The translations under genes were made by a program, and so were the position numbers. Source: Bdellovibrionales bacterium Ga0074139 (GTDB taxonomy: Bacteria; Bdellovibrionota; Bdellovibrionia; Bdellovibrionales; Bdellovibrionaceae). From it: 64,000 nucleotides of DNA. Each line of letters starts with the position of its first letter. Positions within the stretch are counted from its first letter, which is position 1. Of this stretch, positions 51,121-56,246 are shown piece after piece. Under the pieces are notes generated by a model. It saw nothing but the letters and a program-made list of their open reading frames with translations. It was not told where the DNA came from and ran no database searches. The DNA lies in contig LNEB01000003.1 of assembly GCA_001464795.1 (NCBI GenBank), forward strand, positions 62,001-126,000. The letters run 5' to 3'.

Positions 51121-51184
51121 ATAAGCTCACGTCCGAGATGTCCGAGTTTCGCTGATCACCTGACCTTTTACCCTTTCCATCGCT

Positions 51185-51238
51185 GGGCACCGCCCCACTT
51201 GCTTATTGCATCCACTGCTCTTTATGGGGGCGGTGCCC
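51185..51238. repeat. REP-like inverted pair upstream of RAYT
   Basis: GGGCACCGCCCC (51185-51196) and GGGGCGGTGCCC (51227-51238) are exact reverse complements 30 nt apart. Each arm is itself a mini-hairpin, GGGC-ACC-GCCC and GGGC-GGT-GCCC. The 3' arm runs up to the RAYT start codon at 51239 and contains its only Shine-Dalgarno-like GGGGG. The layout resembles paired REP elements around REP-associated tyrosine transposases. Confidence 0.75.
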
Positions 51239-51799
51239 ATGCCAAAATCAAAACAACTGTCATTATTCAGCAATCAGAAGCCTCAAAAAGCTCACGGTGG
51301 TAGCCTTGCTGTTGAAAAAAGACGCTCAAAAAGACCAATCAACATCAAACAAAGCCATCACATCACCATGAAGTCCCATCATGCCGTGGGTTCAAGATCT
51401 TTGTTTCGCTTTAAAAAAATCATTGTTCAGCTTATGAAAAAAAATGCCTTTAAATTTCACATCAAAGTTTATGAGTACTCTATTCAAGGGAATTATTTGC
51501 ATCTGCTTGTTAAAGCCCAAAACCTGGAAGGTTTACAGAATTTCTTCAGGGTCCTTGCAGGACACACAGCTCAGCGAATTTTAAAAGAATTTCCAATAAA
51601 GCAAAGCGCGGGCGGTGCCTCACGAAAGAAGAAAGGGTGTAAGAAGAACCAGCGTAAATTCTGGAGTTATCTTCTATTTTCTAGAATTGTCAGCTGGGGG
51701 CGAGAATTCAAACGTGTGGCAAGTTACATTCAGCAAAATACTCTTGAGCTACTACAGGTGATTGCTTATCAGCCGAGATCAAAAAGTAATTCGAGCTAG
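51239..51799 (+). CDS. REP-associated / IS200-like Y1 transposase (RAYT)
   Basis: 186 residues, start ATG 51239 (GGGGG upstream; an ATG at 51224 and GTG 51233 are in frame). Core fold: FRFKKIIVQLMKKNAFKFHIKVYEYSIQGNYLHLL, then the Y-containing helix ASYIQQNTLE (Y163). The HUH motif reads Y86-L-H88 where most family members have H-x-H. A basic insert (SRKKKGCKKNQRK, residues 128-140) is unusual. No neighbouring cargo; probably a domesticated single-copy nickase acting on the flanking GGGC-N3-GCCC repeats. GC-rich compared with neighbours upstream of 51239. Confidence 0.82.
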   Translation: MPKSKQLSLFSNQKPQKAHGGSLAVEKRRSKRPINIKQSHHITMKSHHAVGSRSLFRFKKIIVQLMKKNAFKFHIKVYEYSIQGNYLHLLVKAQNLEGLQNFFRVLAGHTAQRILKEFPIKQSAGGASRKKKGCKKNQRKFWSYLLFSRIVSWGREFKRVASYIQQNTLELLQVIAYQPRSKSNSS

Positions 51800-51805
51800 A
51801 TGGGT

Positions 51806-51844
51806 CCTAATACCATTTAGGGTCTCAGTGTCTAAAAATGAGAC
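51806..51844 (+). repeat. two abutting hairpins downstream of RAYT
   Basis: CCTAA-N6-TTAGG (51806-51821) is immediately followed by GTCTCA-N11-TGAGAC (51822-51844), starting 7 bp after the RAYT stop. No T run follows, so they are not obvious terminators. They could mark the right end of the REP/RAYT unit or act as a bidirectional stop. Confidence 0.5.
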
Positions 51845-51912: not shown

Positions 51913-52854
51913 ATGAAGATATTTATAAATCTGCTGATTTCACTTTTAATGATGATGTCTCAGGCTTTCTCACAAAGTCTGGATTCAACAATAACCCAGT
52001 TAGATGACAAAATAGCGAAAGTTGTTGTTGATAAAAAAGGTGATGTGACAATTGTATTTCGTGACGGCAGAGAAGCTCAGGTATTTTATGGGCTGACTGG
52101 CGCTTTAGATGGCCAAATACCATTGATGCAATTGGAAAATTCCTGCGGTTACGAATTGAAACCAGCTAATTGTAAAGTTTTGGCTCGTTATGAAAACTAC
52201 CGAGTCCAATTGCAGTGGACGAAAAACCCTAATGCAAAGAAATTGGGTCAAGTGGTCGAGAAATACTATCCCGACCAACCCAATGATGTATCTAAAATAC
52301 AAGAAGACATTTTTACATCACCTATCACCTATCAAAAAACCTTTTTGGAACCAAGAAAAGGACAATTCCGCTACGAACTCAGTTGTGATCAAACCCAGTG
52401 GATCGAAAATGCTAGGACTTCAGACAAGCTCAGTTTATTTTCTTCTGTTTCAAACGAAATAATGTTTACAAATGATGAAACAGATGTGGATGAAAACCAG
52501 AGTCTTTCAGAAATTTTCAATGCACAGTTTAAATTGAATGAAAGAAACAATTATGAGCTGATGACCTATGCCTATTCTCACTCCTCCTTTGGGTCCGCTG
52601 ATCCTTTCTTAAGCAATCAAGTGATCCATTTTGTTTATGAAAAAGATAAAAAATCTTGCCATGTCTCATTTGCAGCTAATGCAGGGGAACTGATTGCGCA
52701 GGTGAGAAAATTGACAGAAAGTTCAGCACCGAATCAGAATAAAAAGCTGTTAAAAAAAATGGGTGAATTAAGGTCATCTGAAATATATTCGCTTATTTCG
52801 GAGATTCTGAACTCTAAGGTTGATTCAGAGCTGAATCTGCAGAGGTATCGATAA
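51913..52854 (+). CDS. hypothetical secreted protein of DUF1588/DUF1501 locus
   Basis: 313 residues from ATG 51913, where the signal peptide (IFINLLISLLMMMSQAFS) begins; the open frame to 51838 would put 25 polar residues first. Cysteines SCGYE, NCKV, SCDQT and SCHVS. Mature part is beta-rich; no family recognised. Stop TAATG overlaps the next start. First gene of a five-gene set transcribed in one direction. Confidence 0.72.
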   Translation: MKIFINLLISLLMMMSQAFSQSLDSTITQLDDKIAKVVVDKKGDVTIVFRDGREAQVFYGLTGALDGQIPLMQLENSCGYELKPANCKVLARYENYRVQLQWTKNPNAKKLGQVVEKYYPDQPNDVSKIQEDIFTSPITYQKTFLEPRKGQFRYELSCDQTQWIENARTSDKLSLFSSVSNEIMFTNDETDVDENQSLSEIFNAQFKLNERNNYELMTYAYSHSSFGSADPFLSNQVIHFVYEKDKKSCHVSFAANAGELIAQVRKLTESSAPNQNKKLLKKMGELRSSEIYSLISEILNSKVDSELNLQRYR

Positions 52855-54350
52855 TGAAATATTTTATTATTCATTTGCTATTCCTGGCGTGTTTCAGTTG
52901 GGCGCAAACCCAGCTGGCTCATCCCACCACACAGTTGCAAAAACTTTCTAGATCACTACGTGGAAAAAACGCTGATATCAATGATCTTAAGAATATTCAA
53001 TCCATGAATGATACTTTGCAAATTGAGAATTTCTTAAAATCAAAAGCCAAAGAGTATATAAAAACAGACAACTTTAAAATGAACTTCAAATTTAAAATTG
53101 ATGAGCTTTTTAAAATGAACGTTGTGATTAATCAGTACCGGGAAGACAAACAAAATGAAGCCTATGATAATCTGATTCAATCCTTAGTTTCTGAAAATCA
53201 AAGTTGGGACCAGTTGCTATTGGCTCGTGAATTTAAAATTTCGCTTCCAGAAGATGGATTTCCACAAGATCAGTATGATGGTAGCGAGCAAAAATTTTAC
53301 GAGGTCTTAACAGGCGGCAAAGACTTTATCGTTGACGATTTTGCTAAGGTCATCACCGCAATCCCCAACCAGTCACAAAGGAAAATGGTTCCTACGACTT
53401 ACACCTTTGATGAAGGTGACGAAAGGATCGCAGGTCTTTTATCCACACCAAGGTTTTATAGTCGCTACACAAACACGGCACTGAATAAGAACCGCAGAAG
53501 AGCCGCTTTCCTATTTGAGGCTTTTTTATGTGATCCCATGGTTCCCGTGGTTCCCTCTATTAATAAGGAAAATGAATTGAAAGACATCGATTTTTCTGTG
53601 GGAAAGGATGTGACAGAGGAGCAAATTAAAGCTCACGCGAAGTTGGACCCCCACGGCACGCAAAAAGATTGCATGGCCTGTCACGAAAAACTAGATCCCA
53701 TGGGCCAAGTTTTCTCGAGTTCCAATTTTAGATTAAGCCCATTTGCATCGCCTGGAGCCCTTTTTTACCGTAGATCTGGTGCAGCTCCAGTGAGCATTCC
53801 CGTTAAAGGGGTTCGAAGCTTAGCTAAATCCATTATCAATCAAGAGGAATACGTAAAATGCCAAACCCAGCATTTTTGGAATTGGTTCATCGGTGAAGAT
53901 GTTCCTTTATCTGAATCAAGACAAGAACAGATTGTGAAGAACTTTAATTCTGTTCAGCGCAAGCCTGTGGATTTTATTTTGTATCTGGTGAGTCAGCCAG
54001 AATTTAAAAAAGCACCCAAGCCATTAACTGAAGATCAACTTTTAGCCAGACAAGCGGTGCAAATTTTAAAAACTTGTCATTCATGCCACAGGCAAAATGA
54101 ATCCGAAATGATTGATTACTGGGATATGTCAGTACTGCCGTTTGCTAAAGACTTAAAAACTCGGATTAACCGAATCACTGAGCTTAAAAAGCAATTGGAC
54201 ACTCAAAACAATAGCCACTCTCCTAAGATGCCACCCAGAAGTTCCCTATGGAGACCCACTCCGCAGGAGTACTCAGTTCTTAATCAGTGGCTTAAAAAAG
54301 GGGCTCCTGATTTGAACGGAGTCTTACAAGTGGAAAGGGATAAAAAATGA
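52854..54350 (+). CDS. DUF1588/DUF1585-type CxxCH protein
   Basis: 498 residues with a signal peptide (FIIHLLFLACFSWA). An N-terminal helical block resembles DUF1592; then RRAAFLFEAFLCDPMVPVVP (DUF1588), C-M-A-C-H-E-K-L-D-P haem motif, KGVRSLAKSI... CQTQHFWNWFIGED (DUF1585) and a second C-H-S-C-H. Two c-type haems are predicted, so the protein is periplasmic. DUF1592-1588-1585 proteins are typical of Planctomycetes and are often next to DUF1501/DUF1552 genes, as here. Confidence 0.78.
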   Translation: MKYFIIHLLFLACFSWAQTQLAHPTTQLQKLSRSLRGKNADINDLKNIQSMNDTLQIENFLKSKAKEYIKTDNFKMNFKFKIDELFKMNVVINQYREDKQNEAYDNLIQSLVSENQSWDQLLLAREFKISLPEDGFPQDQYDGSEQKFYEVLTGGKDFIVDDFAKVITAIPNQSQRKMVPTTYTFDEGDERIAGLLSTPRFYSRYTNTALNKNRRRAAFLFEAFLCDPMVPVVPSINKENELKDIDFSVGKDVTEEQIKAHAKLDPHGTQKDCMACHEKLDPMGQVFSSSNFRLSPFASPGALFYRRSGAAPVSIPVKGVRSLAKSIINQEEYVKCQTQHFWNWFIGEDVPLSESRQEQIVKNFNSVQRKPVDFILYLVSQPEFKKAPKPLTEDQLLARQAVQILKTCHSCHRQNESEMIDYWDMSVLPFAKDLKTRINRITELKKQLDTQNNSHSPKMPPRSSLWRPTPQEYSVLNQWLKKGAPDLNGVLQVERDKK

Positions 54351-54982
54351 AGAATCTAATTGTCTTAGTTTTATTTTGCGTCCCCACTTTAGAAGCTTCT
54401 TTTTCGCATAACCAGTTGCGCTATCTATCAGGGCCCGAGTTTCAGCAAAGAATAACCGATGTGGGCATTAAACTGAATACACAGGAACTATGTTTTCATT
54501 TAAGCTATTCCAATAGAGAAAGTCTGAGTAGTCTGGGTGTCAATCCCCCCTCATTAGGTAAGCCCTTGTTTCCTTCTCCTACAGCAGGAACCATTCAATT
54601 AATTTCAGAGTGCTTAAGTAAAAATTTTTACTTAAGAGCTAATGAATACTCAGAAGAGGATTTAAAAGCTTTCATTTCAGAGGATTTTTTTCAGAAACTT
54701 AAATTTAAAGAGCCCTTCTTTAATGATAGAAAGCGGCAACTTAATTACCAATGGTCAAAGCTTCCCTCAGAAATGAAATATTTTTTGATTCATGATTTGG
54801 TCCTGTTATTTCTAGGCCCCGATGAAGTGATAGAGGACTACGGACTGGTGGAAAACGCAGCCACTTTCCGTCAAGAGATTTTTCAACAACTGGAAAGTGA
54901 CAAGGATATTCCTAATGTGGAAGAGGCTTTAAAAAAAGCCATTTTAACACTTGTTTTACGTGATGAGTTTTTAAGCTATTAA
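54347..54982 (+). CDS. hypothetical secreted protein
   Basis: 211 residues with signal peptide (NLIVLVLFCVPTLEA). Two cysteines in ELCFHL and SECLSK. Helical C-terminal half. No known family. ATGA overlaps the di-haem gene and 16 bp before the DUF1501 gene, so it is part of the same secreted system. Confidence 0.7.
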   Translation: MKNLIVLVLFCVPTLEASFSHNQLRYLSGPEFQQRITDVGIKLNTQELCFHLSYSNRESLSSLGVNPPSLGKPLFPSPTAGTIQLISECLSKNFYLRANEYSEEDLKAFISEDFFQKLKFKEPFFNDRKRQLNYQWSKLPSEMKYFLIHDLVLLFLGPDEVIEDYGLVENAATFRQEIFQQLESDKDIPNVEEALKKAILTLVLRDEFLSY

Positions 54983-54998
54983 AAGGAAAAACTAAAAA

Positions 54999-56246
54999 AT
55001 GATCAACAGAAGAGATTTTCTAAAAAATGGATCCTTACTAGCGCTGAGCTCGTGGTTGCCAAGCACGTCTTTAGCTAATTCTAAAGCTCCTCATTTTGTT
55101 GTCTTGTTGGAGCTCAGTGGTGGTTGGGACACCACTTTGGCCACAGATCCTTGGGTCCAAGCTGAGCGGCCTGAGACTTCCGAGCTATTTATCGAGTACC
55201 GAAAAGACGAGCTTTTACCGTTTCAGAAAAATTTTGTCGGCCCTGCTTTAAAACCACTGGAAAAATACTTCTCAAGGATGAATGTTATTAACGGGGTCTT
55301 TTTAAATTCCTCAGATCTTGGGCATCCATTACTAAAATACAGTCAAACGGGTCATGGGCAGGGAGAGCTCGCTTCACTGGCTGCTGAAGTGAATTATCAA
55401 ACTCAAATAGATAATCTAGGGACTTTATTTAATGAATCTCTTTATCTAGCCAACAGAAATATTATGCAAATGAAGCTTTCTGATTTGTCATATGGAAATT
55501 TCGGCTCATCATTTCCATTGACCCTTTCATCTAAGTCCCAGTCTTCAGTAGAAAAAGTAAAGTCTCAGCTTCATAAAATGAGATCACAGATTCAATCATT
55601 GAATGAGGCTATTAATAAATTAAAAACTGAAAATAATAATAAGCCCATTCGTTCTGGACAAGTGGTCGCACAAAGTTTTCGCCTTGGGTTATCGCAAACA
55701 GCTTCATTAAGTGTTCAACAGATTTCCAATGGAGAAAATGCTGCCAACATAGACTTAGATACTCATGATCAACATGAGGGACAGCATAAAAATTCGTTGC
55801 TAGAAGGTTTTTCACGCATCAAATTATTTTTAGATGATTTGGCAGCTGCTGAAATTCCCAATTCAAAAGGACTTTCCGTTCTTGATCAGACCACTGTCTT
55901 AATTGTTTCTGATTTCGCAAGAACTCCTGCCTTGAATGCCTCAAAAGGAAAAGATCATAATCCACAGACCAATTCCATGATTGTGATGGGGCCTGGTTTA
56001 GCCAAAGGTAAAATGATTGGAAGCTCAAGACTGATTTCAAGAAGTCAGTCACCGATCTCAGTGCCAGTGCTGGTTGCAAACCCACTGGATCAAATCACGC
56101 AAAAACCAGTAAGGCGTAAGCAAGATGTTTTTATGCTGCGGCCTGAGCATATTTTTAAAACTATTTACTCAAGTTTGGGTGTGGATATAGCGAAAAGTAA
56201 TTTAAGTTTTACAGACATCGCCGTTATTAAAGACTTACTAAAATAA
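54999..56246 (+). CDS. Tat-exported DUF1501 protein
   Basis: 415 residues. Tat signal R-R-D-F-L-K followed by SLLALSSWLPSTSLA. The DUF1501 (alkaline-phosphatase-like) fold is seen in FVVLLELSGGWDTT, DLGHPLLKYSQTGHGQGELASL, and VLIVSDFARTPALNASKGKDHNPQTNSMIVMGPGL. Metal-site His/Asp of the family are present (D, H in KDHNP). Exported folded, with metal or cofactor. Its function in this clade is unknown. Confidence 0.85.
   Translation: MINRRDFLKNGSLLALSSWLPSTSLANSKAPHFVVLLELSGGWDTTLATDPWVQAERPETSELFIEYRKDELLPFQKNFVGPALKPLEKYFSRMNVINGVFLNSSDLGHPLLKYSQTGHGQGELASLAAEVNYQTQIDNLGTLFNESLYLANRNIMQMKLSDLSYGNFGSSFPLTLSSKSQSSVEKVKSQLHKMRSQIQSLNEAINKLKTENNNKPIRSGQVVAQSFRLGLSQTASLSVQQISNGENAANIDLDTHDQHEGQHKNSLLEGFSRIKLFLDDLAAAEIPNSKGLSVLDQTTVLIVSDFARTPALNASKGKDHNPQTNSMIVMGPGLAKGKMIGSSRLISRSQSPISVPVLVANPLDQITQKPVRRKQDVFMLRPEHIFKTIYSSLGVDIAKSNLSFTDIAVIKDLLK

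Follow-up and report, generated by a model that had tools for sequence, protein, structure and literature searches.

An inverted copy of an upstream motif lies inside the Y1/HUH transposase gene of a putative IS200-like element of Bdellovibrionota

A short motif upstream of a Y1/HUH transposase gene of Bdellovibrionota recurs in inverted orientation inside the gene itself, and because relatives with a different motif carry a matching different inner copy, the in-gene copy probably serves the element and did not arise by accident. We consider it somewhat probable that the gene represents a small IS200-like element and that three sites in the copy analysed here, A, B and C, are recognition sites of its own transposase; protein binding at these sites, a role in transposition and control of translation are what we infer from the sequence. 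The element would be little more than its own transposase gene, and the transposase would recognise one forward copy of the motif upstream and one inverted copy in the region encoding a tolerant protein loop, with some relatives adding an inverted copy at the 3' end. When the specificity of the protein shifts, both sites would change together because the protein must recognise both, and the in-gene copy would thereby be maintained as DNA sequence. In the present clade an extra inverted copy, B, would have landed on the ribosome-binding site (RBS), so that the mRNA start may be hidden in a 12–13 bp stem and transposase output kept low.

The window, that is, the whole 64-kb stretch of DNA that was analysed (G000:C3:62001-126000), comes from a genome of 2.9 Mb that falls among Pseudobdellovibrio/Bdellovibrio relatives, and guaA directly precedes the transposase gene in it. 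The features of the window copy are the following.

51130..51799, + strand: whole IS-like element, ~670 bp, with CGTCCGA as left boundary and the stop codon as right boundary, delimited by alignment of the genome copies
51185..51196, + strand: site A, forward motif GGGCACCGCCCC, carried by each of the seven copies; upstream of relatives, most sites are forward
51206..51211, + strand: TTGCAT, 9–14 nt downstream of site A, conserved between clades that differ in their motif sequence
51227..51238, − strand: site B, GGGGCGGTGCCC, an inverted copy that adjoins the ATG and shares bases with the Shine-Dalgarno (SD) sequence GGGGG (51226-51230); seen in all six full-length copies and in RNA folds
51239..51799, + strand: Y1/HUH transposase gene, 186 aa, ATG to TAG, assigned by Pfam PF01797 and by a model matching IS608 TnpA and E. 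coli TnpAREP 4er8
51491..51502, + strand: HUH motif codons N-Y-L-H, with the first His changed to Tyr in the window copy, by comparison of copies
51610..51619, − strand: site C, GGGCGGTGCC, the inverted copy inside the gene, in codons for Gly-Gly-Ala, supported by the copies, covariation, codon conservation and the structure model
51725..51727, + strand: putative catalytic Tyr163 codon, motif Y-I-x-x-N-T-L-E, an invariant column in alignment A3 and in the last helix of the model
51796..51844, + strand: pair of hairpins in the flank downstream of the stop, neither motif copies nor common to the other copies

The preliminary description of this DNA had reported two exact inverted 12-mers before the gene and a third motif copy within it, and all three were found in place, GGGGCGGTGCCC being the exact reverse complement of GGGCACCGCCCC. 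As it also stated, the SD-like GGGGG belongs to the second arm, or more precisely spans its start, and the ATG at 51239 adjoins the arm. The two hairpins that it noted behind the stop exist, but they lie outside the element, the other copies losing similarity right behind the stop. Within the window, GGGCNNNGCCC occurs at two sites only, which are A and B (expected, 0.22; two sites were reached in 1 of 100 shuffles). In the entire genome the exact pair of arms with a spacer of 3–60 nt was found in two places, both of them element copies, and a control pattern was found nowhere.

Seven copies of the element are present in the genome, six of full length and one internally deleted. Compared with the window copy, two show ~90% DNA identity over 51130-51790 and three show 66–71%. 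In five copies the homology starts at CGTCCGA (51130), and its other limit is the stop codon; the flanks are unrelated, and the bases flanking the left boundary vary between copies. Sites A and B and the in-gene site C are present in 6/6 full-length copies, the inverted motif GGCACCGCCC / GGGCGGTGCC flanking the start in each, so the inverted repeats are part of the unit, as had been proposed, and the arm over the RBS recurs with them. The palindromes are confined to the vicinity of the left end; on reading the copy ends we saw no right-end hairpin in this clade, and Rfam gave no match. Site C lies ~190 nt inside the right end of the element, unlike the end of IS608. In the internally deleted copy (L016, G000:C8:147866-148269) the HUH region is joined to a left end with site A, and this copy is possibly a non-autonomous derivative. 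Behind guaA, no empty site was found in two genomes of the same genus (G001 and G002), where the neighbourhood is not syntenic and the genes downstream of guaA are not orthologous; we infer movement of the element from its dispersed copies.

The window protein scored 30.4 bits against Pfam PF01797 (Y1_Tnp; cut-off 23, E 4.7e-7), and stayed below the cut-offs of the NCBIfam RAYT model NF047646 (26.7 bits; cut-off 80) and of the IS200 model NF033573 (21.7 bits; cut-off 55). The gene thus encodes, by its profile scores, a divergent Y1/HUH transposase far under the curated RAYT and IS200 cut-offs; of the earlier designation as a RAYT transposase, the Y1 transposase part stands and the RAYT part does not. 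A structure predicted from a single sequence was poor (pLDDT 45), and a version built from 11 sequences (pLDDT 76.5) was used instead. This predicted fold matched IS608 TnpA (2vic) with a Foldseek E of 2e-6, and E. coli TnpAREP (4er8) with TM scores of 0.52/0.57, the former being the highest query-normalised score in the fold search. The Y motif Y---NP is absent from the window protein, which reads YIQQNTLE. The first His of the HUH motif is kept in the five other full-length copies and in the deleted one, where the motif is HLH or HIH, but it is Tyr in the window copy (YLH), and for this reason the window copy is probably not an active nuclease.

Homologues were gathered from 60 related genomes and by a named scan, and in 93 distinct full-length genes we compared the start region with the loop that separates HUH from Y and recorded the length of their longest inverted match. 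An inverted pair of at least 10 nt was present in 26/93 homologues, whereas cross-pair permutation gave a mean of 4.3 and a maximum of 12 (2000 permutations), and a pair in direct orientation was present in 2/93. With a second null, in which synonymous codons were shuffled and the upstream region was strictly non-coding, the count was 19/92 against a mean of 3.6 and a maximum of 8. Canonical RAYT-type genes of the phylum, taken as a control, had an inverted pair in 2/26 and a direct pair in 2/26. In over half of the homologues sampled, the GACATCGCT group being one example, the inverted pair was looked for and not found. Because these tallies count related genes several times, it is the motif classes, about five of them, that count as independent evidence: at least five classes, GGCACCGCCC, GGCATTGCCCC, AGGGGCACCGCG, GGGTAYCGGTCAC and CCCTCGCCCC, each have their own matching in-gene copy. 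The classes follow the protein tree with 6 changes, the least possible number being 5, and one motif class, CCCCTCGCCCC, is unable to form a hairpin alone.

The orientation of the sites in relatives follows a rule: forward to reverse copies number 51:8 upstream, 3:35 in the loop and 3:14 at the 3' end, again with related genes counted several times. Inverted sites frame the gene in the relatives L069, L144, L142, L093, L113 and L125-127; in the present clade the partner lies in the gene. In the predicted model site C falls in a disordered loop (residues 124-130) between helix αC (96-117) and strand β4 (147-151), and the in-gene copy sits in the same loop across divergent Bdellovibrionota relatives. 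A comparison of start regions of relatives had been suggested; part of the relatives do carry the upstream motif with its inverse in the gene. Site B is absent from the closest relatives outside this genome, and only in this clade does a reverse copy adjoin the ATG.

The synonymous positions were informative as well. Among five paralogues the third base is kept in 4/23 fourfold codon columns, three of which are the GGC-GGT-GCC of site C; when three genes of G026 were added, 3/18 columns were kept, exactly the site C codons. The codon before the GGC always ends in G, even as its amino acid varies among Ala, Thr, Val, Pro and Arg. In an independent clade, that of GGGTATCGGTCAC, 7 of the 8 best-kept synonymous codons (101 columns) come from two stretches, GGT ATC GGT in the start motif and GTG ACC GAT ACC in the loop motif. 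We conclude from this codon conservation that selection acts on the DNA.

Folding of the start region was also predicted, and the SD lies in the predicted stem as the preliminary description had supposed. The region 51130-51260 folds with a z of −2.67, and the 66-nt start region alone with an MFE of −32.1 kcal/mol and a z of −4.1. In five of the six paralogues the stem predicted for the start region encloses the SD (z −2.2 to −5.7), and L013 folds otherwise. These predictions make control of translation by the RBS stem plausible, and binding of the transposase might, as a hypothesis, add autoregulation; precedent for translation control exists in ISPpu9, where the transposase 5'-UTR buries the RBS (PMC8450116). 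One could go further and suppose that RNA is all that matters, with A pairing with B to hide the RBS, C competing for A (or, in other clades, hiding the start directly) and the transposase ignoring the motif. The strong stem in 5/6 paralogues, the ISPpu9 analogue and the GGGTATCGGTCAC clade, whose motif overlaps the start codon and has its inverse in the gene, agree with such a scheme, but we regard it as unlikely, though not negligible. What the motif covers varies, from a place upstream of the SD (G026, G031, G024) to the RBS (G000) and the start codon (GIGH clade), and the inverted pair is kept although the effects of pairing would differ between these clades. Moreover, within the clade the motif core is invariant, and two paralogues lose outer pairs with no compensating change, a pattern that speaks for a recognition sequence more than for a structure. 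One paralogue folds otherwise, and the scheme gives the copies at the 3' end no role.

Recognition by the element's own transposase also has to be weighed against the possibility that the in-gene copy is functionless, a REP-like repeat that inserts near or in tolerant loops of transposase genes and is refreshed by reinsertion or gene conversion. REPs inside tnpAREP genes have been described (PMC6006769), two members (L106 and L107) have two tandem loop copies, and in G026 one inverted pair (L210) stands alone outside long reading frames. However, the loop copies are almost always in one orientation (35 to 3), they occupy a homologous position in diverged clades, and the synonymous sites within them have been conserved over the long term. 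In addition, the insertion of TnpAREP subclass 2.4 lies between β3 and αC and the present one between αC and β4, and most of the dispersed sites sampled in G009 are in unrelated reading frames and are not free repeats. We therefore think this explanation distinctly unlikely.

The preliminary description had taken the locus for a new REP/RAYT unit, a proposal that the genome search largely refuted and that we now find very improbable, even though short palindromes flank a Y1 transposase and the predicted fold also fits the TnpAREP structure 4er8. Allowing at most one mismatch, the motif has 20 sites in its own genome, 14 in element copies and 6 elsewhere, nearly all inside unrelated genes; most of these six are ordinary coding coincidences such as Gly-Gly-Ala codons. 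The genome-wide search for the 12-mer that had been recommended as a check returned a single exact occurrence outside the element, inside a gene, and a REP population is therefore absent; we rejected it for this genome, nearly all extra matches being coding coincidences. No GT[AG]G foot was read in the bases 5' of the motif in the element copies, the RAYT profile score is far under its cut-off, and the element is multi-copy with shared ends, unlike domesticated RAYTs. Three separate RAYT genes in the same genome score far better on the RAYT profile, one of them over the cut-off, and the inverted-pair test took in two of the three (L220 and L245).

G000:C3:258542-258952: better-scoring RAYT gene
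G000:C11:27886-28293: better-scoring RAYT gene
G000:C15:146825-147208: better-scoring RAYT gene

Sister genomes gave tens of matches for GGGTATCGGTCAC and GGGGCACCGCCCC. REP-like dispersal was rejected there after 10 sites were read in G009, most of which lay in unrelated reading frames, including one that we take to be citrate synthase (MGIGHRVYK); a few motif sites of G026 do look intergenic. The motif together with TTGCAT was likewise rejected as a dispersed unit, as it occurs essentially at transposase genes only, the exceptions being G027:C83 and G026:C17.

A reading in which selection keeps a peptide (Gly-Gly-Ala or Val-Thr-Asp-Thr-Pro) and the likeness to the upstream motif is chance is disfavoured and barely credible. 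Within a clade most of these residues are indeed conserved. At the site, however, bases in synonymous positions are preserved as they hardly are anywhere else, and a G closes the codon ahead of GGC whatever the amino acid; the clades differ in peptide yet the match to the upstream DNA persists, and the loop is disordered in the predicted model.

The family differs in at least one feature from each of the REPtrons, the TIRtrons and the REP-in-gene cases of subclass 2.4. With tnpA-only members of IS200/IS605 (IS200, IS608 TnpA) it shares the Y1/HUH fold, an element of ~0.7 kb with a transposase only, several dispersed copies and a stretch close to the start that could hide the RBS; it differs in its low IS200 score, in a Y motif that is YIxxNT/E and not Y---Q, and in having an inverted motif copy in the gene and no right-end hairpin that we could find. 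RAYT/TnpAREP and REPtrons of E. coli and Stenotrophomonas (PMC2817692, PMC8266576) likewise have short inverted motifs next to a Y1 transposase gene and include 4er8, the structure with the highest query-normalised TM score, but the present element is multi-copy, scores low on the RAYT profile and is without a REP population, GTAG foot or Y---NP motif. For TIRYT/TIRtrons, De Nocera 2013 (PMC3733652) describes inverted repeats that are unrelated to GTAG REPs, flank a Y1 gene, in some cases overlap the gene ends, and are dispersed little or not at all; the consensus in that work is GGGGWSAS, the text consulted mentions no in-gene copy, and most examples are of subclass 2.1 with a C-terminal HTH, whereas no HTH match was found here. 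TnpAREP subclass 2.4 (Quentin 2018, PMC6006769) comes close in carrying in-frame motif copies between HUH and Y, but its β3–αC insertion is variable, whereas the αC–β4 loop here usually holds one inverted copy that covaries with the upstream motif and keeps its synonymous sites. Burial of the transposase mRNA start is shared with the ISPpu9 tnp 5'-UTR, for which mutants demonstrate it and antisense sRNAs are involved (PMC8450116); here it is predicted.

Work on REP/RAYT and IS200 has yet to settle how Y1 transposases and their short recognition motifs change in concert. If the sites are indeed recognised by the transposase, the classes, at least five in number, would be a natural series of enzyme/site pairs from which recognition could be read in sequence, and REP-in-gene cases elsewhere need not be passengers. 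A tentative possibility, to which we give a little less than an even chance, is a Y1/HUH lineage with an obligatory in-gene inverted partner, in which enzyme and site shift specificity together and the inner copy may serve end pairing or self-limitation.

Several individual loci deserve mention. The loops of L106 and L107 (G011) encode VTGTP...ATDTP and VTGTP...VTDTP, corresponding to two tandem inverted motif copies, and that of L130 (G027) a threefold in-frame repeat (NGGAS...NGGAS...NSGTS). L079, L081, L082 and L105 (G011) lack a covarying pair; where other genes have the loop copy, this clade has a palindrome of the ACTGCCACGGTGGCAGT type, which is self-complementary, and TTGACATCGCTAC precedes its start by ~35 nt. 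Two clades separated in the tree, L125-L127 (genus g6) and L076 and L109 (G023), share the motif CCCTCGCCCC and its in-gene inverse, by either convergence or transfer. L210 (G026:C4:36395-36437) is the lone inverted pair GGGGCACCGCCCC ... CGGGCGGTGCCCC, REPIN-like, in a stretch with no long reading frame. Similar DNA flanks the transposase gene in two species, in L069 (Bdellovibrio sp. qaytius) and L144, which suggests a single copy long inherited vertically. The C-termini of many homologues are alike across clades (NSS, NTS, STA or NTG before the stop) and may reflect right-end DNA that overlaps the stop codon. Behind the element, at 52854-56246 of the window, lies a gene pair with CMACHEKLDPMG and Tat-type MINRRDFL motifs, presumably of the DUF1588/DUF1501 type.
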